64,000 nucleotides of DNA from a bacterium (GCA_013360215.1 JABWCP010000002.1:1-64000), one strand, 5' to 3'. Numbered from the stretch's first letter, positions 23,327 through 57,700 are shown. Notes: generated from the letters alone by a model not told the origin. Program-made: numbers and translations.

Positions 23327-23331
23327 ATTTC

Positions 23332-23343
23332 GTTATTAATAAC
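23332..23343. promoter_or_regulatory. 12-base palindrome before the LVIVD-type surface-protein gene
   Basis: GTTATTAATAAC is a perfect palindrome, flanked by TTTC and GAAA, 5 bases after the DUF445 stop and 19 bases before the next start. It may be an operator or a weak hairpin; no T-tract follows, so it is not a terminator. Confidence 0.25.
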
Positions 23344-23361
23344 AAAAGCGAAAGATCTGTT

Positions 23362-32795: not shown

Positions 32796-35069
32796 GTGTA
32801 TCGTGTAAAGTTAGAACAATTTGAAGGCCCTTTGGATTTATTGTTATTCTTCGTTCGTAAGGACGAACTGAATATATACGATATTCCTATCGCATACATC
32901 ACCAAGCAGTATCTCGAATACCTGCATTTGATGCGTACGCTCAATCTGGACATTGCGGGTGAGTTTATTCTGATGGCCGCTACGTTGATGCGTATCAAGG
33001 CCAAAATGATGTTACCACCGGATCCGACGACCGAAGAAGAAGAGGAACTGATCGATCCGCGCCAGGAATTATCACGCCGGCTTGTCGAATACCGCCAGTT
33101 TAAAGAAGCTTCCAAATCATTGGCCGAGCTGGATGAGTATTGGCGCTCCGTATATCGCCGGAGCTATTTCAATTTTGATCTGATCCCTCAGCAAACCGAA
33201 GAAGCTGTTGGTTTAAAAGATATCTCCTTTTTTGATCTTTTGACGGCTTATAAAAATGCAATGGCCAAAAAGCCGGCTGTCATTTATCACAACGTGGAAC
33301 GTCTCAATGTTACGGTCGAAGAACAGCAGGAATACATCATGGATTTTTTCCGTGATCGCAATATGTACACGTTTCTGGAACTCGTCGAGGATATGAGCAA
33401 GATTGAGGTGGTAGTTACATTTTTAGCCTTGCTGGATCTCGTTAAAAAAGGAGAAATCGCAGCACGCCAAACCACCCTTTTTGATGATATATGGATTTAC
33501 AAAGCGTCCGCATATACGGATGAAATTCCCGATGAGTTACGCGCCGACGAATCCGAAACGAAACAGCCGATACCTTTAAACGAAGAAACTGTTCTCACAC
33601 CGTCCGATGCGGCTGTGTTGAATGAAGTTTCATCTGACGATACAACGTTTGCGGTGAATGAATCCGAAGATACGGCTTTGGATTCGTCATTAACTGAGGC
33701 CGCCACATCGCCCGATAGCGAATTAGCAAACGACCGCATTGATATGGCGCAAACGGATGACCCGGTGCAAGAAGTCGAACAAGCCACAGTTGATATGAAT
33801 ATTGAGGGTGTTACCGATGAAGCGAAAACCGATGCGGAAACGGTTGGATTGAATGAAGAAATTATAAATAACGAAGCCTTCGTTGCGATTCCCCAAGTCG
33901 AAGAACAACCGCAAACGGAATATACAGATACTTCTGAGGCGTTTGCTGATTCCGAAAATGATGAAATTATAGACGCAACAGCCGAAGAAAATTTAAATTC
34001 ACTTTCAAATGAAAACATTCATTCAGTTGAAAAAACTCAATCGAATTTGTCTTCAGATGAAACAATATCTGTATCGGTGAATGAATCAACGGAAGCTGAT
34101 TTTTATACCCAAGTACCATCGGAAAATATTTCTTCCGCACAAAATCAGTCTGAAATAAGCCATGTTAAAACGGAAAATATTGATTCACACGGTGACGAGT
34201 TTTCAAACGAAGAAACGGAATCATTGGATCGTACAATAGTAAATGCAGCCGATGATACGATCGCAACGGATTTAACCGCCTCAATAACCGAAGTGACTGT
34301 TGATGAAAATGTAACCGATGATGCCGTTTTTTTAGCAACCACGACAGAAGACCAAACGATAACAGAGCCCGTTCCCGTCGAGCGTATCAGAACAGTAATC
34401 GCCGAATCGCAAGTCAATGTAAATAATTCTGATGCCGAATCGGTGGATACAATCACGGATAATGCGGCTCTATCAGACACTGAAGATAAAGTGATTGCGC
34501 CAACGAATGAGCTGATCGTTGCGACGGCTGAAACAAATGCAGACGATGTTGATCAAACACCATCGCAGGTTAGTTCAAACGAAATCGGCAATAATAGTAA
34601 AACAGATCAAACTGAATCAGATACGATAATACCAGTCGGGGAAGATGAACCCGCATTAATTCGCGCAAACGATGTTTCGACGACGGATATTCAAGCTATT
34701 CACGAAAATGAATTAACCTCCGAGGATGTGATTGAACGTGCTGCGTCGGAACCATCACAGAACACCGATCCTGTTCATATCATTGAGGCGATTCACAATC
34801 AAAACTATGAAACGATTCAACCGGATTTAGTAAAACCGCTCGTTTCACAAGACGAACCAAGAACTGATGGCGCGTCTGTTGTCTCAGCTAAAATGGAAGA
34901 TGATGCAAGCAAACCCTTGACTGAACAGCATGAAACCGCCGATGCGACTCTTAGCCGCACCGTAACAAACGGAGAAAAACCATCGCTTGATGAAATGGAA
35001 AAACCGTCTATTATAACGGTATTTGTTCGGAAAATAGTATCTTTTGTCAAACGTTTTTTTGGAAAATGA
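32796..35069 (+). CDS. scpA: Segregation and condensation protein A (ScpA) with a ~500-residue acidic tail and C-terminal amphipathic helix
   Basis: Residues 1-240 are a full ScpA kleisin: VKLEQFEGPLDLLLFFVRKDELNIYDIPI at the N-terminus (the SMC-neck-binding part), LMAATLMRIKAKMMLP, and the C-terminal winged helix FLALLDLVKKGEIAARQ that contacts the SMC head. Normal ScpA ends about there (230-270 residues). Here the frame continues for ~500 residues of Glu/Asp/Thr/Ser/Asn-rich, Cys- and Trp-free sequence expected to be disordered, and ends with a basic hydrophobic helix (SIITVFVRKIVSFVKRFFGK) resembling membrane-targeting helices. The start is GTG with GAGGG upstream. scpB follows after 25 bases. 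ScpA acts with ScpB and SMC in chromosome compaction and segregation. Confidence 0.93.
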   Translation: MYRVKLEQFEGPLDLLLFFVRKDELNIYDIPIAYITKQYLEYLHLMRTLNLDIAGEFILMAATLMRIKAKMMLPPDPTTEEEEELIDPRQELSRRLVEYRQFKEASKSLAELDEYWRSVYRRSYFNFDLIPQQTEEAVGLKDISFFDLLTAYKNAMAKKPAVIYHNVERLNVTVEEQQEYIMDFFRDRNMYTFLELVEDMSKIEVVVTFLALLDLVKKGEIAARQTTLFDDIWIYKASAYTDEIPDELRADESETKQPIPLNEETVLTPSDAAVLNEVSSDDTTFAVNESEDTALDSSLTEAATSPDSELANDRIDMAQTDDPVQEVEQATVDMNIEGVTDEAKTDAETVGLNEEIINNEAFVAIPQVEEQPQTEYTDTSEAFADSENDEIIDATAEENLNSLSNENIHSVEKTQSNLSSDETISVSVNESTEADFYTQVPSENISSAQNQSEISHVKTENIDSHGDEFSNEETESLDRTIVNAADDTIATDLTASITEVTVDENVTDDAVFLATTTEDQTITEPVPVERIRTVIAESQVNVNNSDAESVDTITDNAALSDTEDKVIAPTNELIVATAETNADDVDQTPSQVSSNEIGNNSKTDQTESDTIIPVGEDEPALIRANDVSTTDIQAIHENELTSEDVIERAASEPSQNTDPVHIIEAIHNQNYETIQPDLVKPLVSQDEPRTDGASVVSAKMEDDASKPLTEQHETADATLSRTVTNGEKPSLDEMEKPSIITVFVRKIVSFVKRFFGK

Positions 35070-35904: not shown

Positions 35905-36738
35905 ATGAATTTTGATTATTTAAATGACCAGGCTTGGATCGTCAATCAGGACATCCCATGGAAGCATTTGTCTAAAGATCTTTCCGAAGTGCGCATTGCG
36001 ATTATCACTACGGCGGGACTTTATATGTGGAAAACGCAAAAACCGTTTTCTTTTGAAGATGAGATACCGGATGTCTCATTTCGTGAAATTCCCAATTCCG
36101 TTACCCAGGAAACTGTTCGAGTGTCCCATCGTTACATGGATCTATTCGGGTCGGCCGGGGTGGATATCAATAGCGTGTTTCCTATCCATCGTTTACAAGA
36201 GATGGTATCCGAAAAACGTATCGGCGGTCTAGCGGAAACCCACTACAGCGTGATGGGCGAAGTCAGAGATCCGCGGTTGTTTATTGAAGATTGTATGCCC
36301 AAAATACTGAAATTACTCCAAAAACAATTGGTGGATGTTGTTTTGGTAACGCCGGGAGGCCCTTTGGGGCATCAAACAGCGGGGATGATCGCACGATTTC
36401 TGGAGGAAAACGATATTACGACGATAACTATCGGCGCGGTAAAAGCCATCGCGCAAAACGTTAAGTCGCCGCGTACATTACTGGTGCGTTATCCTTTCGG
36501 TATGTATTTCGGTGCGCCATTTGATGCCGATAATCAAAAAGAAATAGTCAACGAGTGCCTGGTCCATCTCAAAGCAATTCGCGAACCCGGTGAGGTGTCT
36601 GAACTGAGTGTACGGTGGCAGGATACGTTTAAAACAGCTTTGCAGATCAAACCGGAGTTACCGACGCTGATGGACACCGGCGCCATCATCGCGGAACCCG
36701 TGATCGAGAAGAAAAAAATTGCAGCGGACGAATTTTAA
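35905..36738 (+). CDS. Glycine/sarcosine/betaine reductase selenoprotein B (GrdB)-family protein lacking the redox residues
   Basis: 277 residues resembling the short GrdB-like family: VRIAIITTAGLY, SFREIPNSV, a DINSVFPIHRLQEM segment, GGLAETHYSVMGEV, and ...LVTP-x-x-PL-x-HQTAG-MIARFLEENDI. From memory, family members carry Sec or Cys in this last motif (TPxU/CPLCHQ). Here Gly151, Gly152 and Gly155 stand there (codons GGA, GGC, GGG), so neither redox residue remains. A redox-inactive or repurposed role is inferred. It starts 6 bases after scpB and 3 bases before rluB, inside a housekeeping operon; no GrdA, GrdE or Sec machinery is seen. Confidence 0.7.
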   Translation: MNFDYLNDQAWIVNQDIPWKHLSKDLSEVRIAIITTAGLYMWKTQKPFSFEDEIPDVSFREIPNSVTQETVRVSHRYMDLFGSAGVDINSVFPIHRLQEMVSEKRIGGLAETHYSVMGEVRDPRLFIEDCMPKILKLLQKQLVDVVLVTPGGPLGHQTAGMIARFLEENDITTITIGAVKAIAQNVKSPRTLLVRYPFGMYFGAPFDADNQKEIVNECLVHLKAIREPGEVSELSVRWQDTFKTALQIKPELPTLMDTGAIIAEPVIEKKKIAADEF

Positions 36739-37465: not shown

Positions 37466-38140
37466 GTGAAAAAATTACTGATCACATTAGACGGTCCCGC
37501 GGGAAGCGGAAAAAGCACGACCGCTAAATTATTAGCTAAGCGGCTTGGTTATTGTTATCTTGATACCGGCGCTATGTACCGAGCGATAACATTGCAAGCC
37601 ATACATCACGGTATTTTTCCGACCGATCCTGAAAAAATCATTACGATGTTGCCGGACATCACACTGCATATTGATTACAAAGACGGACGCCAGCAAACCT
37701 TTCTCAATGGTTGGGATGTGTCCGAAGGTATCCGATCACCCGAAGTAACACGCCATGTCAGCGCCGTTTCGGCGATAGCCGAGGTACGAACTTTTTTGCG
37801 GCAACAACAGCAACATATCGGTAACCAGGGCGGTTACGTCGTAGATGGGCGTGACATCGGAACGGTGGTTTTTCCCAATGCGGATATCAAATTTTATATG
37901 ACGGCCAAAGTCGAAGAACGCGCACGCCGACGTTTGAAAGAAATGGCGGATACCGATGAATGGGATTTGCCCAAAATGATCGAAGATATACAAAAACGCG
38001 ATCACGCCGATATGACTCGCGCCGAAGCGCCTTTGCGGCAACCTCCCGACGCGATCGTAATAGACAATTCACTCATGACCTTGGATGAACAAATACAGGC
38101 CATCATCGCACATATCGAAAACCGATTTGGTAAGCAATAA
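37466..38140 (+). CDS. cmk: Cytidylate kinase
   Basis: Phosphorylates CMP and dCMP. 224 residues. P-loop GPAGSGKS at residues 10-17, LDTGAMYRAITL, VSAVSAIAEVR, VVDGRDIGTVVFPNAD, and the LID-type KRDHADMTRAEAPL. The start is GTG, 10 bases after rluB. It closes the usual scp-rluB-cmk block; the kinase gene begins 34 bases later. Confidence 0.96.
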   Translation: MKKLLITLDGPAGSGKSTTAKLLAKRLGYCYLDTGAMYRAITLQAIHHGIFPTDPEKIITMLPDITLHIDYKDGRQQTFLNGWDVSEGIRSPEVTRHVSAVSAIAEVRTFLRQQQQHIGNQGGYVVDGRDIGTVVFPNADIKFYMTAKVEERARRRLKEMADTDEWDLPKMIEDIQKRDHADMTRAEAPLRQPPDAIVIDNSLMTLDEQIQAIIAHIENRFGKQ

Positions 38141-38174: not shown

Positions 38175-40316
38175 ATGACAAACGAATCCTACCCTGAAAA
38201 AATCGGAAGGTATCAGATACTCAGCCTTTTGGGTGAAGGGGCCATGGCTAAAGTTTTTAAAGCTGTGGATACGCGTATTGACCGTGTCGTAGCTTTGAAA
38301 ATGTTGCAATTTCGTGAAGGGATGACCGATGAAATGATCCAGCAACTCAAGGATCGTTTTGTGCACGAAGCCAAATTTGCGGGTAAACTGACTCATCCGA
38401 ATATTGTTACCATCTATGACGCCGAAGAAGAAAATGGCGTATCGTATATGGCGATGGAGTATGTGGATGGCCGGACATTGGAATCCGTCATTGAAAACAA
38501 CGAAACCCTTACGGTTGAGCAGATTCTTGATATCCTGATCCAGCTCGCGCATGGTTTAGACTATGCCCATAAACATGATATTATACATCGCGATATCAAG
38601 CCCGGCAATATCATCCTCACATCGGAAGATATTCCTAAAATCATGGATTTCGGCATTGCTAAAATCACCACGTCCAGTACGACGGTGATCGGTACGATTT
38701 TAGGAACGCCCGGATATATGTCACCGGAACAGATAACCGGCAAATCGGTAGACCATCGGACAGACATCTTCGCTTTAGGTGCCGTTTTTTACGAATTGCT
38801 TACTCGCGAAAAAGCTTTTCCGGGAAAAAATCTAACGGAGATCATGTATCGCGTGGTCAGCGAAAATCCCATGCCGCCCAGCATGGTCAACCTCAATGTA
38901 CCGGAGATCATCAATCCTATCGTCATGCGGGCAATCGCCAAAGGCCCGGGAGAGCGTTATCAATCCGGGACCGAATTTGCCAAAGCGCTAGAGGCGACCA
39001 AAAAGCAATTATCATCGGGCGGCCACCGGACGACTATTTCTAAAAGTGCACCGCCGTCTGCCGATAAAAAAACAGAAATCGTAAGATTTTTTGAAAACCG
39101 ATATGTCGGCATGGTTTCGTTTGGTTGGGCGACATTAGCTACGATTTTGTTGCTTATCACATGGTCCGGCGGATTTGAGTTTAGCCGTATGGCACGTTCT
39201 TTGAGCGAAAAAGGCCCCGCTTCATTGATCATGAATCTCAATGTACCCGATGCCGAAATTATGATTGACGGTGATCGTTATACCCCGCAAAGTTCATTGT
39301 TTCGTCTCGATAGCGTGGGGGTCGGTGAACGCCGCATTACGGTAAAGCGCGATCATTACGAGTCGTACGAAACCGCGGTGATTTTCGGAAAAGGGGAACA
39401 GAAAAACATAGAAGTTCACCTTAAACCGTTACCGGTCGAAATACCGCCGGGAAGTGATACTTCTTTTGTTACTATTCGCTCATCGCCGGATATGGTCAAA
39501 GTGGAAACAAGCTACGGTAAGTTCTTGGGATTTACGCCGATAGACAGTTTGATTTTCCCCGGAGGTCGCTATACGTTGATTTTTTCACGTGAGGATTTTA
39601 TTTCGCGTAAACGCGACATTGCGCTTGGAAAAAAACGTCTGACGTATGTGGAGCAGTCATTAGAAAAACAACGCGGTACCGTTTCACTGGATCAAGTTTT
39701 TCCGGAACAAAGTTATCTTATGGTGAATGGAAGACGAGTTCAGAAAAATTATAGAAATAATTCGTATGTCTTGCCGGTCGGAAATCAAGTATTAACAATT
39801 AAAGCCGATGGTTATGACGATTTGGTCAAAACTTTGCGCGTGGAACCGGATTCGGTGCTTGTACTGACAGATTCCCTCAAAGCGCAATGGACATCCGTGC
39901 GCTTTGAAAGTAATCCCACAGGCGCGGACGTGTACTTAGACGGATCGGAGGAGTCGGCAGGTAAAACACCGGTTATTGTAAATGATTTGCTTGCCAATTC
40001 GCATAAATTACGAGCGGTATTGCGCAATGAAAAACGATTGATGAATTTCCGCGCTGTCAAAGGCGATACGGCTACTGTGCGTGTAGTTTTTGCAAACCCG
40101 AACGGGTATCTCAATTTGGTTAGCGATCCGCCCGGTGCCGAAATATTTCTTAATACTGTACGTGACGGTGACTACAAAACGCCGGTCAAGCGCGAATTGA
40201 AACCCGGTTTTTATAAAGTACGATTGACGCACCCGTCATTTAAAAAATATCACGAAATCACGGTAAGGGTAAGGCCTGACTTTACGACCGAGCTTGTACA
40301 TAAGTTTGAACCGTGA
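38175..40316 (+). CDS. Transmembrane Ser/Thr protein kinase with C-terminal PEGA domains
   Basis: Hanks-type kinase (residues ~11-270): glycine loop LLGEGAMAKV, Lys42 in VALK, Glu65, catalytic HRDIKPGNI with Asp140, DFG at 158-160 and GTPGYMSPEQ; all residues for activity are present. One transmembrane helix (about 311-334) leads to an extracytoplasmic part of ~380 residues made of several PEGA-type beta domains (e.g. NVPDAEIMIDGDRYTPQ, SNPTGADVYLDGSEESAGKTP, SDPPGAEIFLN). PEGA modules are thought to bind surface proteins or glycans. Its TGA overlaps the GTG of the following lipoprotein gene (GTGA), so the pair is coupled and may form a sensor-receptor unit. Confidence 0.93.
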   Translation: MTNESYPEKIGRYQILSLLGEGAMAKVFKAVDTRIDRVVALKMLQFREGMTDEMIQQLKDRFVHEAKFAGKLTHPNIVTIYDAEEENGVSYMAMEYVDGRTLESVIENNETLTVEQILDILIQLAHGLDYAHKHDIIHRDIKPGNIILTSEDIPKIMDFGIAKITTSSTTVIGTILGTPGYMSPEQITGKSVDHRTDIFALGAVFYELLTREKAFPGKNLTEIMYRVVSENPMPPSMVNLNVPEIINPIVMRAIAKGPGERYQSGTEFAKALEATKKQLSSGGHRTTISKSAPPSADKKTEIVRFFENRYVGMVSFGWATLATILLLITWSGGFEFSRMARSLSEKGPASLIMNLNVPDAEIMIDGDRYTPQSSLFRLDSVGVGERRITVKRDHYESYETAVIFGKGEQKNIEVHLKPLPVEIPPGSDTSFVTIRSSPDMVKVETSYGKFLGFTPIDSLIFPGGRYTLIFSREDFISRKRDIALGKKRLTYVEQSLEKQRGTVSLDQVFPEQSYLMVNGRRVQKNYRNNSYVLPVGNQVLTIKADGYDDLVKTLRVEPDSVLVLTDSLKAQWTSVRFESNPTGADVYLDGSEESAGKTPVIVNDLLANSHKLRAVLRNEKRLMNFRAVKGDTATVRVVFANPNGYLNLVSDPPGAEIFLNTVRDGDYKTPVKRELKPGFYKVRLTHPSFKKYHEITVRVRPDFTTELVHKFEP

Positions 40317-41185
40317 TTTCTAATAACCGATTCGTCGCTTTAGTTTGCATTCTATGGCTTATATCGGGTTTGGGATGCGAGAAAAATATCAAAATTATTC
40401 GCGACGGGTTTCGGTTGGAATACGCGATCAACAATCCCGCTCATGCCTTCCACGTACGTCTTGTTTTTGAGACCAATCCCCGCGACAGTTTGATAGGCCT
40501 GATGTATATTGCCAGAACGGCAAAAGAATCAGGCATTTTGGATTACCGTGAAGCGCATATGTTACGTCAATCCACCGGTGATACATTATTCCTGAATTCG
40601 TCTCAGTTTTCTGATTTATTAGAGTGTGTGGGTGATTTACACAATACGATAAAGCCGTCCAACGTGTATGGACAATCCGACGGGAAAATCGTTAACATCA
40701 ATCTAAGACATTCGGGAAAGAGTTATGATTGGCGGTTATTTGGTAAATCGGATCAATCTTCAGCCAAAAAGCTGACTGCTTATATAGAAATGATGTTTGA
40801 AGAGACGTATCCCGGCATTTCTTTATCGGCGGAAAACTCGCGTATTGATTTGTCACTTCGCGATCATGTAAACTCAAGAAACACAGAAACAAATTTTTCG
40901 ATCTATTCGAACAATAATATGATCCGTGTACATCAAGATAGTCTGAGTGTATACACATTGGATGTGGGAAAATATTTGTACCTTTGGCAGGTTTTGGAAG
41001 CAAACGATGTTTGGCGTCTTGATGATAATAAAGCCATGCAGGATAAGTATCCTAGCTTTTACGAATTGAAGATTCAGATGGGCAAGCGAACACACCGTTG
41101 GTCTGTTTACGCGCCGATCTATCTTGATGATCGCCGTTATCTGCGTATTGTACAAGCCATCGAGTCAACCGTGTTGAGCCGTTAA
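40313..41185 (+). CDS. Uncharacterised lipoprotein coupled to the PEGA kinase
   Basis: 290 residues. An N-terminal signal (FVALVCILWLISGLGC) ends at Cys22 with a relaxed lipobox, so I expect an envelope lipoprotein. The rest is alpha/beta with no motif I recognise; it contains pairs of segments such as LRQSTGDTLFLNSSQFSDLLECV and YDWRLFGKSDQSSAKKL that suggest a duplicated beta-rich domain (similar KIQMGKRTHRWSVY near the C-terminus). The GTG start is within the kinase stop codon. Its partner could be the kinase PEGA region or the metallopeptidase encoded next. Confidence 0.7.
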   Translation: MISNNRFVALVCILWLISGLGCEKNIKIIRDGFRLEYAINNPAHAFHVRLVFETNPRDSLIGLMYIARTAKESGILDYREAHMLRQSTGDTLFLNSSQFSDLLECVGDLHNTIKPSNVYGQSDGKIVNINLRHSGKSYDWRLFGKSDQSSAKKLTAYIEMMFEETYPGISLSAENSRIDLSLRDHVNSRNTETNFSIYSNNNMIRVHQDSLSVYTLDVGKYLYLWQVLEANDVWRLDDNKAMQDKYPSFYELKIQMGKRTHRWSVYAPIYLDDRRYLRIVQAIESTVLSR

Positions 41186-41195
41186 AAGGAAATAC

Positions 41196-43391
41196 ATGTT
41201 TAGTTTTTGGCTATCCAATAAACTTCGCGGGTCAATGCTAATATTACGGATCGTCGCACCCGCGATGATGGCATTTATACCTTTAACATCCGATTTGGAT
41301 TATGAATTTGCTGAGACATTAAACATTATTAATGTCATTTTCTTCGCCGTTTGGATGAGCACGGAAAGGGCACATTCCAATACTAGCTATCATTCCGGCG
41401 TCTTACGAACCGTTAATCGGTTGCTGTTGCCGATCATTTTTTTTGATTTTGTCATCATTTCGATTGCGATGATTGCCGGTCATCATTTGCATTGGTATCG
41501 TACTTTTGGTTTGTATTTTTTACTTCCCTTTGTAGGGAGTTGGATAGGTCTTACCCTTGGATATGTCTGTCGCTTTTTTATCCAAAGAAGGCCTTGGTTG
41601 GGGGTGGCGATAATCCTGTTATTCACCTTGATCCTAAATCTGATTTGGTTGCTTTTCACCGCGCCGATTTTCGTTTATAGCATTTGGTGGGGCTATTTTG
41701 CAGGTCCGATCTACGACGAATGGATTCCATTGACGGACACACTTGTATTTCATCGTTTATTCTCATTGGGGTTCGCGTTTGCCATTTTTATATCCGGTGA
41801 TTTAATCACACGAAAATTGAATAACACTATTACTTACAAGAAATTTATTTCTTTGATGGCTGCAGTATGGTTGGTCATTACGGGCCTATTTTATTGGCGC
41901 GATAACTGGGGCTGGGACACATCCTATGCGACGCTCGAACAAAAATTGAATGTGGTGTACGATGATGAACGACTTACAATTTATAGTGATACGACTTCCA
42001 AATTTGTAACACGTTATGTCAGTGCGAGAATAAAACAGGTCACGGATTGGCTTAATATCAATCCAGCTAAAGTTAAAATATTCATCTATCCCGATGCGCA
42101 AACAAAAAAAATACTCATGGGTGCCGGGGGAACAAATTTCGCCAAAGTATGGCGTAATGAGGTCCATGTCAATTCTGATGATGCTGAATTCACAATAAAA
42201 CATGAAGCGGTACACGTGCTGGCGTCTTCGTTTGGGCATCCGCTTTATAGTACTACCAAACCCGGCATGCTGGAAGGGCTTGCTGTAGCCGCGGCTTGGG
42301 ATGAATCGCAATTAACGCCGCATGAATGGTCCGCTGCGCTATACAAACTAAACAAACTGCCGGACATTACCGCCTTGATGGAACCGATGGGTTTTTGGAG
42401 CAGTTCATCCGGTTTGGCTTATACCGTTTCAGGCTCATTTGTACGATTTCTCGTAGATCAATATCCCATTCAAAATATACACCGCGTGTATGCTTCGGAA
42501 GATTTTAAAGATGTTTACGAACTGCCATTGGATACACTCCAGGAACGATGGAAGTTTTTTTTAAATACGATCGAACTTGATTCGCTTGACCTTCGCATTG
42601 CGACTACGCTATTACAGCCTTCAATATTCAGAAGACGGTGCCCGCATTATGTTGCTGATTTGCAAAAAGAATATTACACGTCAATTGAGATGAAAGAATG
42701 GGATAATGCACTTAAGCTTACAGAGCAGATTATATCAACAGGGACGTCGCCCGAACGCTGGGTATTGAGCCGTGCACGCATCCATTTTAAGCAAAAGAAA
42801 TATGATGCTGCGTTATCGAAAGTCGAAGAAGTATTAAATAAAAGCACGCTATCCTATACTATGCGAGGATGGGCTTTATTATTAAAAGCAGATATTGTAT
42901 TTTGCCAAGGTCAAAACCAAAAATCTATGGATTTGACGCATGAGATTATGACGCTCTATGACCAAACGACATCCGTATACGAAGCGGCGTTATGGTCCGA
43001 TCACTTGATGCGGCATCCGGATAACGGTACACTATACGCTTCTTGGTTGGACGCCGTTGATCAAAATAAAGCCGGCGAGTGGTATTCAGTGCATTACGAC
43101 AAAAAAGATGATGCGATTTTTTCGTATAAATTGATTTCCTATTTATATCAAACTTCGCAATATGATTCTATTTTTTCGTACATCAAAACACACCCTATGG
43201 CTATTACCGATAGCTCGGTATATCTAAAATATAATCAGTTATTGGGTGATGCCGCACAACGAATCGAGCTATGGAGCGAAGCCGAGCAATATTATCGCGC
43301 GGCGCAGCAGTACGCTAAACGAACAACTGAAAAAGTTCAGCTCAATGATCGCCTTGAATTGATCCATTACTTGAAAAATAAAATTGAATAA
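41196..43391 (+). CDS. Polytopic membrane metallopeptidase (HEAVH, MA clan-like) with C-terminal TPR region
   Basis: 731 residues. The first ~230 hold about six hydrophobic transmembrane segments. The following domain has HEAVH (His336, Glu337, His340) and, 19 residues later, Glu360 in MLEGLAVAAAW: the HExxH-x(n)-E pattern of gluzincin-type zinc peptidases, as in peptidase MA-like domains. C-terminal ~250 residues are TPR-like helices (ARIHFKQKKYDAALSKVEEVL, WSEAEQYYRAAQQYAK). I predict a membrane-bound protease or sheddase with its active site and TPRs outside the cytoplasm; the substrate is unknown. Starts 10 bases after the lipoprotein gene and 3 bases before the M23 gene. Confidence 0.78.
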   Translation: MFSFWLSNKLRGSMLILRIVAPAMMAFIPLTSDLDYEFAETLNIINVIFFAVWMSTERAHSNTSYHSGVLRTVNRLLLPIIFFDFVIISIAMIAGHHLHWYRTFGLYFLLPFVGSWIGLTLGYVCRFFIQRRPWLGVAIILLFTLILNLIWLLFTAPIFVYSIWWGYFAGPIYDEWIPLTDTLVFHRLFSLGFAFAIFISGDLITRKLNNTITYKKFISLMAAVWLVITGLFYWRDNWGWDTSYATLEQKLNVVYDDERLTIYSDTTSKFVTRYVSARIKQVTDWLNINPAKVKIFIYPDAQTKKILMGAGGTNFAKVWRNEVHVNSDDAEFTIKHEAVHVLASSFGHPLYSTTKPGMLEGLAVAAAWDESQLTPHEWSAALYKLNKLPDITALMEPMGFWSSSSGLAYTVSGSFVRFLVDQYPIQNIHRVYASEDFKDVYELPLDTLQERWKFFLNTIELDSLDLRIATTLLQPSIFRRRCPHYVADLQKEYYTSIEMKEWDNALKLTEQIISTGTSPERWVLSRARIHFKQKKYDAALSKVEEVLNKSTLSYTMRGWALLLKADIVFCQGQNQKSMDLTHEIMTLYDQTTSVYEAALWSDHLMRHPDNGTLYASWLDAVDQNKAGEWYSVHYDKKDDAIFSYKLISYLYQTSQYDSIFSYIKTHPMAITDSSVYLKYNQLLGDAAQRIELWSEAEQYYRAAQQYAKRTTEKVQLNDRLELIHYLKNKIE

Positions 43392-43394
43392 CGC

Positions 43395-46028
43395 ATGCAA
43401 CTTTTGATGAAATTATTTTTAACCCTGTCTTTTTTGGTTTACGGTGTTTGTATAAACACACTTAATGCAAAAGTAAAACCTCCCAAAAGCGCTGCTTCGC
43501 ATAAAGTACAATTTGTTTTTGCGGATAGCCTTACGGGATGGGCGATCGGATCCATTAAAACCGGTGGCGCATTAAAAGACAGCTTAAATCCCAAAGCACT
43601 TTTCATAACCGGTATTTTAAAAACATATGACGGGGGATTGAATTGGGAATTGCAAACCGTCCTCGGCGCTGAAGAAAACGGGTGGGAAGTGCGTGCAACG
43701 GCCAGTCTTAATAGAACGCACGTTTGGGCGATTTTAAGTAAACCCAATTCAGATCAAAATGTATTATTACGCACGACCGACGGTCGCCGCTGGACCATGC
43801 AATCATTGAAGCTTGCCGATGGCGATCCGATTCAAATTTGCTTTTCCGACCCGGTGAACGGGTTTATGATTCTGCGCGAATTTATGGGCAGTGCCATATT
43901 GCGCACGACGGATGGCGGCGCTACTTGGGCGGCATTTGAACCGGGGCTTGGATCCGATTATCGCGGCGTGGCGTTCGACGGTACATCATGGTATGTATTA
44001 GCCCAATCTCGTACTAAACCCGAAGTGGTTACAGTTTTACGCAGTGATGACAATGGTAATATTTTGATCGAAGCCGAAACTTTTAATCCTGAATCGAACG
44101 ATCATATATTAGAAGGATTCGGCATTCGTGCACACAAAAATAAAATCTCCTTAATGCTGCGCGATATTGATTCTAAAACTCGTGAGACTTCCCGGTGGAT
44201 TTGGATGCAGTCCGGAGATCGTTTTGTATCCCATACTTCACAAGCGTTTCAATATGAAAAAGAATTCAAATCGCCTTCAGATATTCAAAACTTCTCAATA
44301 GATCACTCGATTTATGTCATTGATCGCTCGGAAGAGTATGAACCGGGATTGCCGGACGCTAAAATAAGATATAATCTTATCCGTTCGGTTGACGAAGGAA
44401 AAAGTTGGATACCCATTCCCGAGTTTCGTTTCCCGGTACTAGCGCTCCAGACTGTCGGCGACGATGTGCTTATTAGCGCCAATGACGGCAATCTGTATAA
44501 GTTTAATTACATTACAGGTATTTATCAGACGGCATCCGTTGATCTGAAAAAAGCTTTTTTGAATCCGCCACAAGCCGGCACTGAAAGTGTCGCCGAGAAT
44601 GGAGAAAATATATTTGATCTCGGCCATGATGAGTTTGAAAAAGAATCGGTTTATGAAAGCAAATGGGAAAGCGCCAATGACAGTGCATTCGCTGAAAGTT
44701 TTAGTAGCGTACGGGATGCTAACAAATACAAACCGGATGCTAAAGCCGAGTTTTCTGTCGGTATTGATTCGATAACATCTATCGGCGTGGTCTTACATCG
44801 GCGCACACGTATGGGATCTAAACATCAGGCGATTAACCTGATCAACGAAGAACTTCAAAAAGGTGAAATACGCCTTCGTAAATATAAACCTATCACATTC
44901 AAAGGGACGGTTCGCAGCACGGGTACCCGTTTTCCTGTCAAATACAGTTGGAGTTCCAGTATTAGCGGCGAACTCAGCGATCAGATCGAGTTTACTACCA
45001 GTCCTCGTCAATTGCCGCCCGGTGTTCATTATGTATTTTTTAAGGCCCAGGATAATTTAGGCGCATGGTCCAATCCGGTAGTGGTAAAAGTTATCGTAGA
45101 TGATTTTCCTAAATACAAATTTCCTTTCCACGGAAATTGGGTGCTCGGTGGCGGCGGCAGTCATTATAATATCGGTCATCATATTCGTACGGTTCCGTAT
45201 GGTATTGACGTAAATAATATCGAACAAGGTTACGGCGGGGACGCTGACATCGGTTTTCCTATTCGCGCATCAACGGACGGTATTGTTTCTTTGGCCGGCT
45301 ACATCAAAGGTTATGGCCGAACCGTAAAAATAGATTATATGTACGGCGGGAAAAAATATACGACTTTAGTTTCACATCTATCGACCATCAGCGTGGAAGT
45401 CGGTGAATACGTTAAACAAGGACAAGAAGTCGGAACGGTAGGAAGCACCGGCCGATCCAGTGCGCCGCATATTCATTGGGAGTTGAGGGTGGATGGTGCC
45501 AATCTGCCACCGGAACCGATATTCGAAAACGATACGACCATTTTGCAGAAATTACCCAACGGTCTTCATGTTTCATCCGATAATATATATGAACCTGAGC
45601 ACATCGTGATCGTTCCTGAACCGGAGATACCCGGTACACAATGGGATCATCGCGGCTATCATCACGGATACCGGTATATGTGGATTACGAGAGGTAAACC
45701 GACGGTGGAAGCCGTATGGAAACCCAAACTTCCTAAGTCGGGTTCCTATAAAATCCAAGTACACATCCCCAAAAAATTTGCCGATGGCGTGGCCTTCTAT
45801 CGTGTAAGCACTAAAAACGGTATTGATACGGTTAAAGTAAATCAAAGCAAATATACTGACGAATGGATAACTTTGGGCGTGTATGAACTTGATAAAAATG
45901 ATGAAATATCGGTTATGCTTAATAATTCAACACCTCAGGGAAAAGGTTCCGTTGCATTCGACGATGTTCGATTTGTAGGTCAATGGGACACCTACAGTAA
46001 AAAAGGTTTTAATAAACCAATTCAATGA
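43395..46028 (+). CDS. Secreted M23 (LytM) peptidase with N-terminal YCF48-like propeller and C-terminal golvesin-like domain
   Basis: 877 residues with signal peptide (MQLLMKLFLTLSFLVYGVCINTLNA). Residues ~30-370 are BNR/YCF48-like repeats (LFITGILKTYDGGLNWE, LRTTDGGATWAAF, RSVDEGKSWIPI). A beta-sandwich of Y_Y_Y type follows (~505-570), then the M23 domain (~575-710) with HH...YGID, HLSTISVEVGEYVKQGQ and SSAPHIHWELRV, the zinc ligands of lysostaphin-type peptidases. The last ~130 residues (TVEAVWKPKLPKSGSYKIQVHIP...FDDVRFV) match golvesin-like carbohydrate-binding modules. It should cleave peptidoglycan cross-links or another envelope peptide. The spacer from ligand His to Asp is longer than in classical HxxxD enzymes. 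Confidence 0.87.
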   Translation: MQLLMKLFLTLSFLVYGVCINTLNAKVKPPKSAASHKVQFVFADSLTGWAIGSIKTGGALKDSLNPKALFITGILKTYDGGLNWELQTVLGAEENGWEVRATASLNRTHVWAILSKPNSDQNVLLRTTDGRRWTMQSLKLADGDPIQICFSDPVNGFMILREFMGSAILRTTDGGATWAAFEPGLGSDYRGVAFDGTSWYVLAQSRTKPEVVTVLRSDDNGNILIEAETFNPESNDHILEGFGIRAHKNKISLMLRDIDSKTRETSRWIWMQSGDRFVSHTSQAFQYEKEFKSPSDIQNFSIDHSIYVIDRSEEYEPGLPDAKIRYNLIRSVDEGKSWIPIPEFRFPVLALQTVGDDVLISANDGNLYKFNYITGIYQTASVDLKKAFLNPPQAGTESVAENGENIFDLGHDEFEKESVYESKWESANDSAFAESFSSVRDANKYKPDAKAEFSVGIDSITSIGVVLHRRTRMGSKHQAINLINEELQKGEIRLRKYKPITFKGTVRSTGTRFPVKYSWSSSISGELSDQIEFTTSPRQLPPGVHYVFFKAQDNLGAWSNPVVVKVIVDDFPKYKFPFHGNWVLGGGGSHYNIGHHIRTVPYGIDVNNIEQGYGGDADIGFPIRASTDGIVSLAGYIKGYGRTVKIDYMYGGKKYTTLVSHLSTISVEVGEYVKQGQEVGTVGSTGRSSAPHIHWELRVDGANLPPEPIFENDTTILQKLPNGLHVSSDNIYEPEHIVIVPEPEIPGTQWDHRGYHHGYRYMWITRGKPTVEAVWKPKLPKSGSYKIQVHIPKKFADGVAFYRVSTKNGIDTVKVNQSKYTDEWITLGVYELDKNDEISVMLNNSTPQGKGSVAFDDVRFVGQWDTYSKKGFNKPIQ

Positions 46029-46038
46029 AAGGCCTTTT

Positions 46039-47787
46039 GTGAAGTTTACATTTAATCGGGTGAAAACTCTGATCGTAATAAGCGCACTGAGTGTTACGTT
46101 CATCGGCGGCTGGTTTGCCGAGTCGCTTGTCGGTGATGATTATTATTACGAAGTCAAACGTTCGCTCAGGCTGTTTGGCGATGTGTACAAAAATGTCGGT
46201 GAAAAATATGTAGATGAAATATCACCCAAAGTAATCATGCGTACGGGTATTGACGCCATGCTTGAAACGCTCGATCCCTATACCATGTTTTATGAAGGTT
46301 CTGAGAGCAGTGATTTGGATGCTTTTATGAAGGGCAAATACGGCGGCATCGGCGTGACCGTCGGTATTCGACGCAATACGATCATGGTAATCACCGTGAC
46401 AGAAGGATCACCCGCATACAAAGCCGGTTTAAAACCGGGAGATCGTATCGTCGGCGTGGATGGTAAAACGACGCGTGATATACCGATACGTGATCTTTCT
46501 AATTCCGTAAAAGGCGAACCTGGGACATCATTGAAACTTGATGTTAAACGCGAAGGTCAAAGCAGCGCCTTGCAAATGACTATGATTCGTGAGATGATCG
46601 CCATAGAAAATATACCCTATTACGGCGTATTGGCCGGAGATATCGGGATTATCAAGCTTACTAAGTTCTCTAAAACATCTACATCCGATTTCACGCGTGC
46701 TTTAAAAGATTTAAGATCACAAGGCATCAAGGGGTTAATCATAGATCTGCGTGGGAATCCGGGAGGACTTCTTGATGCGGCCATTGATATTACCAATCAA
46801 TTTGTTCGTAAAGGCGAATTGATCACATACACAAAAGGTCGAATCCAAGATGCCAATCGTTCATACTATGCCAATAATGACCCTTTGATTCCACAATTGC
46901 CGGTAGCCGTCTTAGTTGACGGTAATAGCGCCAGTGCGTCGGAAATCGTGAGTGGGGCAATGCAGGATTTGGATCGCGGTATTTTAGTAGGTAGCACAAC
47001 TTTCGGTAAAGGCCTTGTGCAAACCGTATATCCATTGCAAGAGCGTGATGCGGTTCTCAAAATTACTACGGCTAAATACTATACGCCGTCCGGACGTTGT
47101 ATCCAGCGCGAACACTATGCCCATGATCGCTCAAACGCAATGCGTTTGGAATCGGAAGATGAGCCGAATGAATTTTATTACGATGTGTTTGGAGAAGAAG
47201 ATCAGGTACGGGATAGCCTGACCAATGATTCGTTGTCGTCGAAACGCCAGGAATTCAAAACTAAAACAGGACGTATCGTATATGCCGAAGGCGGCATCAC
47301 ACCGGATATCATAAAAGATGATTATAGTTTTTTGGGATATACACGAGAAATAGTACGTCGCGGGTACGTATTCGATTTTGCAACTCGTTTTTCGGCTCAA
47401 AATACCCGAATTGATACGGGATTTGTACCGGATGAAGAACTGTTAACCGAATTTTATAAATTTCTCAAAGATCATCATTTCAATTATAATTCAACCGCCG
47501 ATTCGCAGTTGACTGAATTACGCGCTTACGCCGAAAACAATGGTTATTCGGCACAGATACAGCAATCCATTCTACAACTTCAGAACAAATTTGATGAAGA
47601 AGAAGTGAAAGAGTTCGAGGCCGCTAAAACGGCGATACGAAATCTTTTGCAGCAAGAAATCATTTCCCGATATTACGGAAACCGACGCCGTTTCGAAATA
47701 ACGCTCAAGTCAGATTCGGTGGTCGAATCCGCTCGCAGCGTGCTTAAAGATGAAGTGTTGTATAAAAAGATATTAAAACAAAAATAA
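46039..47787 (+). CDS. ctpA: C-terminal processing peptidase (S41 family, CtpA-like)
   Basis: 582 residues, GTG start. An N-terminal membrane anchor or signal (VKTLIVISALSVTFIGGWF) precedes a PDZ domain (~85-180; GIGVTVGIRRNTIMVITVTEGSPAYKAGLKPGDRIVGVDG is read across it in parts) and the S41 catalytic domain with Ser299 in SASASEI and Lys324 in TTFGKGLVQ, the 25-residue Ser-Lys spacing of D1-processing peptidases. A C-terminal helical extension (~430-582) follows. It degrades or trims periplasmic proteins; in other bacteria CtpA/Prc controls peptidoglycan hydrolases, fitting its position directly downstream of an M23 peptidase. Confidence 0.95.
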   Translation: MKFTFNRVKTLIVISALSVTFIGGWFAESLVGDDYYYEVKRSLRLFGDVYKNVGEKYVDEISPKVIMRTGIDAMLETLDPYTMFYEGSESSDLDAFMKGKYGGIGVTVGIRRNTIMVITVTEGSPAYKAGLKPGDRIVGVDGKTTRDIPIRDLSNSVKGEPGTSLKLDVKREGQSSALQMTMIREMIAIENIPYYGVLAGDIGIIKLTKFSKTSTSDFTRALKDLRSQGIKGLIIDLRGNPGGLLDAAIDITNQFVRKGELITYTKGRIQDANRSYYANNDPLIPQLPVAVLVDGNSASASEIVSGAMQDLDRGILVGSTTFGKGLVQTVYPLQERDAVLKITTAKYYTPSGRCIQREHYAHDRSNAMRLESEDEPNEFYYDVFGEEDQVRDSLTNDSLSSKRQEFKTKTGRIVYAEGGITPDIIKDDYSFLGYTREIVRRGYVFDFATRFSAQNTRIDTGFVPDEELLTEFYKFLKDHHFNYNSTADSQLTELRAYAENNGYSAQIQQSILQLQNKFDEEEVKEFEAAKTAIRNLLQQEIISRYYGNRRRFEITLKSDSVVESARSVLKDEVLYKKILKQK

Positions 47788-47794
47788 GCATCCA

Positions 47795-48628
47795 TTGGAA
47801 ATTCTTGCATATTTAATCATTGGCTTTACAGCCGGAGCCGTCGGTTCGATGGTAGGTTTAGGCGGAGCGATCATCATGACACCGGCCTTAACGATCCTGC
47901 TGAATGTGCCGATCAAATCCGCGATCGGCGCCAGCCTTATTGCGCTGATTGCTACTTCGGTCATGTCAACGGCGGTTTATTCTAAAAAAGAATTGATTCA
48001 TTATCGTTACGGTATGCTTCTTTTGATACTCATGGTGTCCGGATCTTTTATCGGAAGCGCAATCGGCGTGATGATGGACGCCCGTTTGCTTTCTCTTTTT
48101 TTTGTAGCGTTGATGTTTTTTGCTGCAGGTTTTTTACTGTATCAGGTTTTTCAAAATGAAAACCCGGATGCCCGGGTTGAATGGCAAAACAATGAAGAAC
48201 CGCATCGTTTTCCTCCCAACGGTGTATTATTGGAAGCGCACAGCGGTATCCGCAAATTCTACCGGGTGCAGCATGGCGTCGTTATGATGTTTATTTCGGG
48301 TATTGCAGGGGTGATTTCGGGCATGTTGGGGGTCGGTGGCGGTATTATTCAGGTGCCTTTTATGCATGCGATCAATCGTATGCCCATCAAGGCGGCTACA
48401 GCAACATCAGGATTTATGATTGGTTATACAGGTATGGCCGGAGCTCTAGTCTATGTTATTTTTGGGCAATTTGAATTGATTATGACATCGGCGCTTGTTC
48501 TGGGTATTCTCACCGGATCCCAAGCCGGGGCACGTTTAGCAATTCGCCTCCATGCGCGATGGATCATATATTTAGTCATTGTTGTCTTGACCGTTGCGGC
48601 AATTCGACTCTTCATGAAAGTATTTTGA
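47795..48628 (+). CDS. TauE/SafE-family sulfite exporter-like permease
   Basis: 277 residues, TTG start. Two repeated halves of about four transmembrane helices each begin with the family motif: GAVGSMVGLGGAIIMTPAL near the N-terminus and AGVISGMLGVGGGIIQVPFM in the second half. A hydrophilic loop (~125-155) separates them. Family members export organic anions such as sulfite, sulfoacetate or related compounds; the substrate here is unknown. It is paired with DUF1634 (1 base gap), an arrangement seen repeatedly for this family, suggesting an accessory subunit. Confidence 0.9.
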   Translation: MEILAYLIIGFTAGAVGSMVGLGGAIIMTPALTILLNVPIKSAIGASLIALIATSVMSTAVYSKKELIHYRYGMLLLILMVSGSFIGSAIGVMMDARLLSLFFVALMFFAAGFLLYQVFQNENPDARVEWQNNEEPHRFPPNGVLLEAHSGIRKFYRVQHGVVMMFISGIAGVISGMLGVGGGIIQVPFMHAINRMPIKAATATSGFMIGYTGMAGALVYVIFGQFELIMTSALVLGILTGSQAGARLAIRLHARWIIYLVIVVLTVAAIRLFMKVF

Positions 48629-48629
48629 A

Positions 48630-48902
48630 ATGCAGCAATCAGGTTTGATGTTAAAAATCGGCGGTTGGTTCAGCGCGGTTCTTTTATCCGTCGGTTTGCT
48701 GATACGGTTGAGCGGTAATTTAGCTTTATCTCATTTTGTTTTGATCAGCGGCATTGTCGTAATGTTGATCAGTCCGTTAGCCGGCATGCTGGCAATGATT
48801 GTCAAATTTTGGAAAAACGGTGAAATCCGATTTGCATATATCGGGGTACTTATATTATTCTTATTAGCCGGTGGAACTTATATCCTTCATATTCTACAGT
48901 AA
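48630..48902 (+). CDS. DUF1634 family small membrane protein
   Basis: 90 residues with three predicted transmembrane helices (WFSAVLLSVGLLIRL, FVLISGIVVMLISPLAGMLAMIV, FAYIGVLILFLLAGGTYIL). Sequence and position directly after a TauE/SafE permease fit DUF1634, presumed accessory to the permease. No catalytic residues. Function unproven. Confidence 0.8.
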   Translation: MQQSGLMLKIGGWFSAVLLSVGLLIRLSGNLALSHFVLISGIVVMLISPLAGMLAMIVKFWKNGEIRFAYIGVLILFLLAGGTYILHILQ

Positions 48903-48912
48903 AGGGGTATCT

Positions 48913-49281
48913 ATGCAGCGTATATTTGGATTCTTAATTTTTAGTTTTTTAATGGCCGGATGCGGCAATACCAGCCGACTGATCGTTTATACCGATGCTA
49001 ATTATGCTATGGTCGAAAAAGGGAAAAATATACGCGTCAAACACGTGGACGGTAAATTTGTTCAGTTTTACAAGATGGTAATTGATAAAACAGATGATGA
49101 ATATATTTACGCCCGTTGCTGGAAAACTAAAAAAAGTACGCCGGAGGATCTACGTTTTAAGAAATCGGAAGTCATATTGGAAAGTACAGAGTTTAGTGTA
49201 TCCCGCACAACGGAATACGTCATGCTCATCGGTGTAACAATTTTATTGATATTTCTTTCAGATCGAATTTTGAGAGGGTAG
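48913..49281 (+). CDS. Small lipoprotein with C-terminal transmembrane helix
   Basis: The frame opens at 48871, overlapping DUF1634, but the ATG at 48913 has AAAGGGG upstream and begins a lipoprotein signal (FGFLIFSFLMAGC, Cys17), giving 122 residues. A short beta-rich domain (IRVKHVDGKFVQFYKMVIDKTDDEYIYARC) is followed by a hydrophobic segment (YVMLIGVTILLIFLSDRIL). The combination of lipid anchor and C-terminal helix is unusual. I do not recognise a family. Confidence 0.65.
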   Translation: MQRIFGFLIFSFLMAGCGNTSRLIVYTDANYAMVEKGKNIRVKHVDGKFVQFYKMVIDKTDDEYIYARCWKTKKSTPEDLRFKKSEVILESTEFSVSRTTEYVMLIGVTILLIFLSDRILRG

Positions 49282-54773: not shown

Positions 54774-57700
54774 ATGCTTTATCGTTTTGCCGTTATATTT
54801 CTATCGGCCATTGTTATCGATTTATCTGTGGCGAGAGCACAGGATGAGACGTCTCCTTATATTTCGGCAGACTCCTCACTACAGCATACCTTGCTATCCA
54901 AAAATATTAACTACTTTCAAAGTGCACACACGATTCGCGGATATTCTTCCGACACATTGTACCATCTTCCGTTTCGCCGCATCATACCCGAAAGTGAAGT
55001 TTTTACCATCGGATATCAGACATTAATCCGCGAAAAGGATTATACGATACGTTATTCCGACGGCGTCGTTCGTTTTTCATTTGTCGTAGATTCTTCGATT
55101 ACGGTTGAGTGCCGTTTTTTAGTTTCACGTTTAGGCATAGATGACTCGTACGCCCGCCGTGATCTGCCGATCATTCGATCAAATATCGTTTCATCCAAAT
55201 CTGATACATTGCCGCGATGGACACCGCCTAATCCGTCATCGGATTTTACCAACGATCTGAATGGCCGTGGTACAATAACGCGCGGATTTACGATCGGAAA
55301 CAATCAGGATTTTACTCTAAACTCCGGATTGAATGTGCAAGTTACAGGTCAAATCGGGGAAGACGTAACGCTGGAAGCGGTAATAACAGACGAACAAACG
55401 CCGATCCAGCCCGAAGGAAATACCGAACACCTTCAGGAAATCGATAAAATCTATATCGAAGTACGTAAAGCGGATAAATTTACCGCGACCCTCGGTGACT
55501 TTGAAATACAAACAACAGGTACTCAGTTTGGCAATTTTCATCGTTCGCTTCAGGGCGTTCGCAGTTTGTACAACGATGGGCGTACCGACGCAGCTGCAGC
55601 TTATGGTACGGCAAAAGGCAAATATCACAGTAATACGCTAACCATAACCGAAGGCGTTCAAGGACCTTACGAATTAACCGGAAAAAACGGTGAGCGAAAC
55701 CCGATCATCGTTGCCGGTAGCGAAAGAGTGTGGCTTAATGGCGTAGCTTTGACTCGAGGGGAAAATAATGATTATGTGATGGATTATAATGCAGGTCAGA
55801 TCACCTTTACACGAAAACGTTTGGTGACGCCCGAATCAAGAATCGTTGTCGATTTTGAATATTCCAATGAAGTATTTAGACGTAATACAGCTTCAGCATC
55901 GGTGCGATCACAATTTTTTGACCGACGTTTAACTGTAGGAGGCGCATTTATATCAGAGTCCGATGATAAGAATAATCCGCTTAATCTGTCTATTAACCAA
56001 CAGTTACGCGATTCGCTTGCCTCGTTGGATGATCGGGGGCTGCAAGGCAATGGGAATACAATCCTGGTAGAGGGAGGACGATGGGTCGGGGAAGGGCGCG
56101 GTGCTTATTACAAAGTTTATGACGCGATTTCCGATGATAGCATTTACGTTTATTCCGGATCGGATAGCTCCGGTTCGTACAATGTACGTTTTACTGATGT
56201 CGGGTTTGGACGCGGTGATTATGTTCGCGGTAATATTATGGGTGAATTTATCTATGCCGGATCGGGTTTGGGTTATTATTTACCGCTTGTACCGATGGAT
56301 TTGCCTACACGGCAGAAAACGGGAATATGGTATGCAGCATGGAACCCGTTTCAGAATCTGCGGTTGCAAACAGAATTTGCATTGAGTCAATTTGATAAAA
56401 ATCTTTATTCCCCGCGCCAATCGCAAGGTTACGCCTACCAATTGGAAGCTTCCGTCGCAGATCAGGACATCCGGTTATTTAAAACGAAACTTGGAAAATT
56501 TGATTTACAAATTACACGTCGTAATCAGGATAGCAATTTTACTGCGCCCGATCGCACACAAGATGCTGAATACGGTCGCCAATGGAATATCTCCAATCTT
56601 GCGACGTCTGTATACTCAGTAACCGCGCCCGGATTACAAGAAACCGTGAATGATTTCAGATTGGCATATAAGCCGTGGAAAGGCGTACAAACTGATTTTT
56701 TTACGGGTGAATTAACGCGCGGCGATCATCAATTTGTATCCACTAAATCCGGTTCGGGTTTAAAAATAGATCGGAAAAATATTTTCATATCGGGCAGCAT
56801 TTATGATATACAGATTATGGATCGGACACAGTCCGTCATATTGAATAACCATACACAAAGGAAATTCTTTGATTTCAATGGTTCGTGGCGGATGTGGCGC
56901 CCGGGTTTGTATTACGAAGACGAATCGCAAAAGAACAGACAATCGGATTCGGTTTACGGCGCATCGTATCAGGTGATTCGCCCCAATTTAAGTATCATTA
57001 CCGGTCAATATCTTACGCTTGGCGCAAGTTATGAAATGCGATCGGACCGCATTCGAAATGATGCCGTGGACTCCCTCAATGGAAGGGTATCAAAATCTGT
57101 AAACCAACGTTATTATTGGCAATGGACGGAATGGCATAATCTCAATCACACGTTCGAGTGGCAACGAAGAAAAAGAGAATATTTTGGAAGTAAGAAAACG
57201 ATAGCCAATCCGGATCGCATCAGTAATCTGGTAAACGCAAGTGCCGATTATCATCCTTTTTCCAGAGCCGTGCAAGTCACCGTAGATTATCAGATATCTC
57301 AGGAACAACTTCAAAACCGAAAAATCGTTTTTATTCCGGTGCCGCCCAATACAGGCAATTTTGTTCAAGTCAGTCAAGATAGTTTCAGGCAGGTTCCGCA
57401 AGGGCAGGGTGATTGGATCCAAAGTGCCGTTCGCGGTCAAGGATTTACCCCTGTGGTGGAACTAAAATCAGGAATTCGGCTACGTTTGGAAATTGGTCAC
57501 TTATGGAGTCGCGCTTCAAAAGACTCAATAAGTGATAGATGGCAATCTCGATTTATAGAACGTTTGATTTATGAAGGCTTTTTTCGGATCGAAGAAAATC
57601 AAACAGATCCCGATCGTAGTTTTTATTGGCTCCAAGCGGTTCAAAACAAAAATACACAACGGGGGAATCTCCTTTTGCGGCAAGAGTTGAGCGGCTACGA

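Follow-up and report, generated by a model that had tools for sequence, protein, structure and literature searches.

Genes at the locus and extent of the run

The window analyzed here, a 64-kb stretch of bacterial DNA, contains between positions 38175 and 47787 five predicted open reading frames (ORFs), all on the plus strand and separated by -4, 10, 3, and 10 nt. These coordinates, orientations, and gaps reproduce those of a preliminary description of this DNA, which had read the five genes as one pathway linking an external signal to cell wall hydrolysis. The five genes and their direct neighbors are as follows.

37466..38140, +, cmk, cytidylate kinase (PF02224, 1.9e-68), in the same run, directly 5′ of the kinase gene
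38175..40316, +, Hanks-type Ser/Thr kinase with PEGA repeats, 713 aa (PF00069, PEGA matches, motifs, transmembrane segment)
40313..41185, +, LIPO, lipoprotein with tandem Emfourin-like domain, 290 aa (7-sequence alignment, AlphaFold topology, Emfourin profile tests)
41196..43391, +, HEAVH, membrane gluzincin with TPR, 731 aa (48-sequence alignment, AlphaFold, positive-inside count, Foldseek)
43395..46028, +, M23 protein, exported, with YCF48-like propeller, M23, and Golvesin_C domains, 877 aa (Pfam, alignment)
46039..47787, +, CtpA/Prc, S41 carboxyl-terminal processing protease with PDZ domain, 582 aa (PF03572, 1e-52; TIGR00225)
47795..48628, +, TauE/SafE permease (PF01925, 4e-47), 7 nt 3′ of CtpA

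LIPO starts with GTG and overlaps the kinase gene by 4 nt (GTGA). The gap between CtpA and TauE/SafE is 6 to 8 nt in the relatives measured, and because the permease gene is as close as the others, the gene run extends past CtpA. The gap between cmk and the kinase gene is 34 nt here and 5 nt in three relatives. Limits drawn around the five genes are therefore arbitrary, since cmk and TauE/SafE adjoin them. A pattern scan for promoters and terminators gave no clear excess over shuffled sequences (29 versus 38.6; 20 versus 18.9).

Pfam and NCBIfam searches bear out the gene identities first proposed (protein kinase with five PEGA repeats, weak Peptidase_MA_2 with TPR, M23 with YCF48-like and Golvesin_C domains, and S41 with PDZ), and the predicted envelope localization of the products is likewise supported. 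The kinase (PF00069, 1.4e-52; PEGA, 9.5e-31, in five Pfam stretches) has a complete set of motifs (G-loop, Lys, HRD, and DFG) and one transmembrane segment at about residues 311 to 329; it is predicted to place its kinase domain in the cytoplasm and its five PEGA repeats outside. CtpA exceeds the TIGR00225 cutoff (293.5 versus 218.6 bits) and carries a PDZ domain and the Ser-Lys motifs, including TFGK and a SASASE motif read in the sequence.

The M23 protein scores well above the Pfam cutoff (80.4 versus 28.7 bits) and contains the second zinc motif, HxH; D605, H661, H692, and H694 are kept in all seven family proteins described below. The first zinc motif, HxxxD, is absent in 7/7: the protein of this locus has Pro (P601) in place of its His, and the relatives have Arg. 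Another histidine, H596, lies nine residues ahead of D605 and is the same in all seven proteins; it may be a shifted zinc ligand, or the zinc site may be degenerate. Wall hydrolysis by this protein is uncertain because the canonical first zinc-ligand position has been lost.

Conservation of gene order in relatives

Seven genomes from the family of the source bacterium were found among the relatives searched, and all ORFs in the window were mapped onto these relatives. LIPO, HEAVH, and M23 are present in 7/7 family genomes, and the order LIPO-HEAVH-M23-CtpA is the same in all seven, with the run spanning two contigs in G001. The wider family order is scpB, GRDB-like, rluB, cmk, kinase, LIPO, HEAVH, M23, CtpA, TauE, a 136-aa lipoprotein, a methyltransferase, mutL, and miaA; on the longest relative contig, conserved genes continue beyond miaA, reaching window position 63954. 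Gene-order conservation, which the preliminary description had proposed as a check, holds for four of its genes in order; the fifth, the kinase, is variable, and the shared order is not specific to the five because the scpB-mutL neighbors are equally conserved. Scattering in related genomes, named there as a sign against an operon, is not seen for these four genes within the family; outside it, HEAVH lies among unrelated genes.

Several neighbors in the window have features of their own. ScpA (32796-35069; 757 aa) carries an acidic C-terminal extension that is very long and probably disordered; its alignment with the G005 relative covers only about residues 1 to 244. In the family, a conserved gene for a PrdB/GrdB-like protein (35905-36738; TIGR04483, E = 4.7e-37, below cutoff) separates scpB from rluB, with no obvious proline-reductase context. 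The putative 136-aa lipoprotein (48871-49281), kept before the methyltransferase gene and mutL, has a C-terminal hydrophobic helix and no Pfam match. A 1,179-aa protein (54774-58313), also without a Pfam match, occupies the same place in relatives at 42 to 44% identity. The protein at 23248-26193 ends in a Por_Secre_tail/FlgD_ig region that suggests a type IX secretion-like sorting domain, and similar tails occur elsewhere in the genome.

LIPO and HEAVH are the constant unit of the run. In all seven family genomes LIPO lies immediately 5′ of HEAVH, at a distance of -32 to +10 nt, and although both proteins diverge fast (26 to 35% identity within the family), the pair remains tight. The kinase is the most loosely attached of the five genes: in G001 an intact cmk-LIPO-HEAVH stretch has no kinase, with cmk and LIPO 115 nt apart, and in G002 to G006 a gene of about 111 aa, shown in G005 to belong to the CMD family (PF02627), lies between the kinase and LIPO. 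In two genomes of one genus, the PEGA kinase gene is present in tandem upstream of LIPO (G002:C38 and G004:C65).

One account of this pattern is that the genes simply share a long housekeeping neighborhood and have no pairwise functional link. The scpB-mutL block and the genes beyond it are indeed kept whole in relatives, and a sister family of the same class (G007 and G008), which has no LIPO or HEAVH matches, carries cmk and CtpA in different surroundings. We nevertheless regard purely neutral synteny as unlikely, given that LIPO and HEAVH stay together despite fast divergence while kinase and CMD genes are gained and lost, and that pairing of Emfourin and protease genes recurs in other genomes.

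The lipoprotein and the adjacent membrane metalloprotease

Among 84,980 species genomes scanned, 162 relatives of HEAVH were found, of which 80 were kept, and 48 sequences were aligned; they come mainly from Poribacteria and also from Latescibacterota, Myxococcota, and others. The ligands H336, E337, H340, and E360 (HExxH plus a downstream Glu) are invariant in the 48 aligned sequences, and R187, C482, and most of a GY..GP.YD loop (GYFxGPIYD at 166-174) are invariant or nearly so. HEAVH proteins of the family have HExxH-x19-E spacing, and the same spacing can be read in M4 proteases near Emfourins. The Peptidase_MA_2 (PF13485) match of the locus protein is weak and below the gathering cutoff (E = 5e-4; 20.4 versus 32.4 bits); 26/48 relatives match this profile at E ≤ 0.1 (best, 1.2e-7). 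No M48 Pfam match was found for the locus protein, nor among the 25 families listed for the 48 relatives. Structure prediction, to which the preliminary description had looked for both LIPO and HEAVH, was confident for HEAVH (pLDDT, 90.3; pTM, 0.90) and showed seven long helices in the N-terminal part, followed by a mixed domain (244-472) and then by a helical array that resembles TPR (TPR, 483-730). Loop charges in a positive-inside count are consistent with an inner N terminus and with catalytic and TPR parts on the outer side, and the HExxH domain is accordingly predicted to be periplasmic. Foldseek returned BepA as the best match (6ait, E = 6e-4), followed by TPR proteins. HEAVH relatives apparently form a so far undescribed family of periplasmic metalloproteases that have seven helices, a TPR part, and the signature GYFPGPIYD / HExxH / EGxA.

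Outside the family, none of the HEAVH relatives among the 80 fetched has LIPO, M23, or the cmk/mutL block nearby; neighbors whose names were read from sequence include sugar-kinase- and nucleotidyltransferase-like genes in Poribacteria and a PilZ-like gene in Myxococcota. Because these relatives occur without LIPO, HEAVH-type proteases do not generally need an inhibitor. Linkage of a kinase to HEAVH was rejected as a general rule, a close kinase occurring in only one Bdellovibrionales-like lineage among the 80 relatives. In a distant genome of that kind, a HEAVH-type gene shares 16 nt with the gene of a kinase whose tail is PEGA-like (L028:7287-10870), and a kinase is also near a HEAVH-type gene in L097.

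In 7/7 family proteins, LIPO has an invariant Cys22 at the end of a hydrophobic segment. The AlphaFold model (pLDDT, 70) has two halves with strands and helices in like order, corresponding to repeats at about residues 62 to 165 and 176 to 288, and the halves align with each other in register, albeit weakly. Structure prediction gave no assignment here: Foldseek found no significant structure (best, Mago nashi, E = 2.4e-3). Searches of the PDB gave no match to the LIPO profile and, by sequence, no Emfourin structure. A TPR profile search of LIPO also had no match, and an adaptor role like that of LbcA, which is a TPR lipoprotein, was rejected on this ground. Among minor matches, DUF6438 (E = 0.045) and SH3b_P2 (E = 0.006) were each found in one family member; DUF6438 is not separated from Emfourin as a LIPO relative because only one sequence of it was collected.

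Profile comparisons nonetheless give LIPO, left unassigned in the preliminary description, a remote relationship to Emfourin. Pfam Emfourin (PF20242) matches 3/7 LIPO proteins (E = 0.013 to 0.04) over 61 to 74 residues, covering up to positions 12 to 87 of 91; the best family member stays below the gathering cutoff (16.3 versus 27 bits), and LIPO of the locus itself has no direct match. When compared by hhalign with Emfourin proteins gathered from other genomes, the N half scored 28.6 to 29.7 and the C half 25.9 to 28.2 in the same register, versus 17.4 for the best decoy (n = 24) and 18.8 for the best column shuffle (n = 150), and both halves were also far above the reversed profile. LIPO proteins ranked at the top when the Emfourin HMM was run against 7,843 ORFs (E = 0.1 to 0.5), and in the reciprocal search of 880 ORFs both LIPO half-profiles ranked the same three Emfourins highest. 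A standard profile-profile tool gave a probability of 47% for LIPO-Emfourin, versus 1% for HEAVH. On these profile scores, LIPO is probably homologous to Emfourin, though the GG[FLI]xG motif near the start, present in Emfourin loci, is absent from the 7-sequence LIPO alignment.

In other genomes, Emfourin genes adjoin genes for M4 proteases. For 16 strong Emfourins, the gene directly upstream encodes an M4-type protease with a HELTH/HELCH site. Four lipoprotein-type Emfourins from other bacteria (L235, L237, L243, and L245) are encoded immediately upstream of an M4-type protease gene, an apparent tethered-inhibitor arrangement with the same gene order (lipoprotein, then protease) as LIPO-HEAVH. 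Emfourin inhibits the protealysin encoded in the same operon (PMC9505478). The remote relationship of LIPO to metalloprotease inhibitors points to HEAVH, not the kinase, as its partner, and we give inhibition of HEAVH by LIPO slightly less than an even chance. Counterpoints are that LIPO lacks the GG motif and scores below the curated Emfourin cutoff, that HEAVH is not an M4 protease, and that the pairing is seen in seven genomes of one family, where synteny is generally high. Alternatively, LIPO could be an assembly factor or a substrate-delivery adaptor of HEAVH, with an Emfourin-like fold used for binding only. The missing GG motif, the two repeats, and invariant residues of its own would suit such a role; we judge it improbable, as the experimentally studied Emfourin-protease pair is an enzyme and its inhibitor.

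Proposed organization and comparison with known systems

With domains, predicted topology, synteny, and the Emfourin similarity of both LIPO halves obtained by computation, we infer how the products may bind, inhibit, select substrates, and act in vivo. In our preferred reading, to which as a whole we assign an even chance, the locus is a housekeeping neighborhood containing three separate envelope units. The first would be a PEGA-domain sensor kinase with no specific tie to the remaining genes. In the second, lipid-anchored LIPO would use its two Emfourin-like repeats to bind and restrain the periplasmic gluzincin domain of HEAVH, which would be translated directly after it, and the TPR tail of HEAVH would recruit envelope-protein substrates, which would amount to a BepA-like protease for quality control whose inhibitor is tethered. 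More tentatively, this membrane-tethered, duplicated Emfourin-like protein could be a dedicated inhibitor of HEAVH, acting as an on-site brake on envelope quality control. The third unit would be the exported M23-fold protein, with its altered zinc site, paired with CtpA as in envC-ctpA.

The single pathway of the preliminary description, in which the PEGA array senses an outside signal, LIPO and HEAVH relay it, and M23 and CtpA remodel the wall, can draw on the conserved adjacency in the family and on Pseudomonas aeruginosa CtpA, which degrades wall hydrolases with its lipoprotein partner LbcA (PMC6050968), but it is quite improbable given that housekeeping genes are conserved equally, the G001 stretch has no kinase and a CMD gene sets the kinase apart in five genomes, HEAVH has no link to wall genes elsewhere among the 80 relatives fetched, LIPO is Emfourin-like and, unlike LbcA, has no TPR profile, and the canonical first zinc-ligand position of M23 is lost. 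The reading of the operon as a wall-signaling pathway is corrected accordingly, and the part of the locus worth testing is the LIPO-HEAVH pair, a candidate for an envelope protease with its inhibitor tethered beside it.

Each of the three proposed units has known counterparts. The kinase resembles PASTA kinases (PknB/Stk1) in being a Hanks kinase that spans the membrane and carries repeated domains on the outside; unlike them, it carries PEGA rather than PASTA and scores 317.6 against a PASTA-kinase cutoff of 450. The M23-CtpA pair is the most ordinary part of the locus, because envC-ctpA and LbcA-CtpA are already known. In the P. aeruginosa envC-ctpA operon (envC-ctpA-PA5135), an M23-fold gene lies immediately 5′ of ctpA (PMC12569750), and the two loci share an exported M23/LytM-fold protein with an altered M23 zinc site encoded directly before CtpA. 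The M23 protein here differs in having a propeller and Golvesin_C and in keeping D605 and HxH, and it scores 35.7 against the NF008644 equivalog cutoff of 270 for EnvC. The LbcA-CtpA and NlpI-Prc complexes likewise combine CtpA with an envelope lipoprotein, but no TPR profile was found in LIPO.

HEAVH resembles BepA (YfgC), an M48 periplasmic metalloprotease, in having a gluzincin-type protease followed by TPR on the predicted periplasmic side; it differs in its seven membrane helices, its lack of an M48 Pfam match, and its lipoprotein gene partner. Compared with the protealysin-emfourin (pln-m4in) operon of Serratia proteamaculans, LIPO has two repeats, no GG motif, and a score below the PF20242 cutoff, and its partner is a 7-TM, TPR-bearing gluzincin instead of an M4 protease; in both systems, a small protein of related profile adjoins a gluzincin metalloprotease. 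If the preferred reading of this pair is true, the range of Emfourin-class inhibitors would no longer stop at those with M4 partners but would take in a lipid-anchored protein that regulates a polytopic protease of the envelope. Both the orphan LIPO and a widespread, uncharacterized family of membrane gluzincins would then have a function that can be tested.
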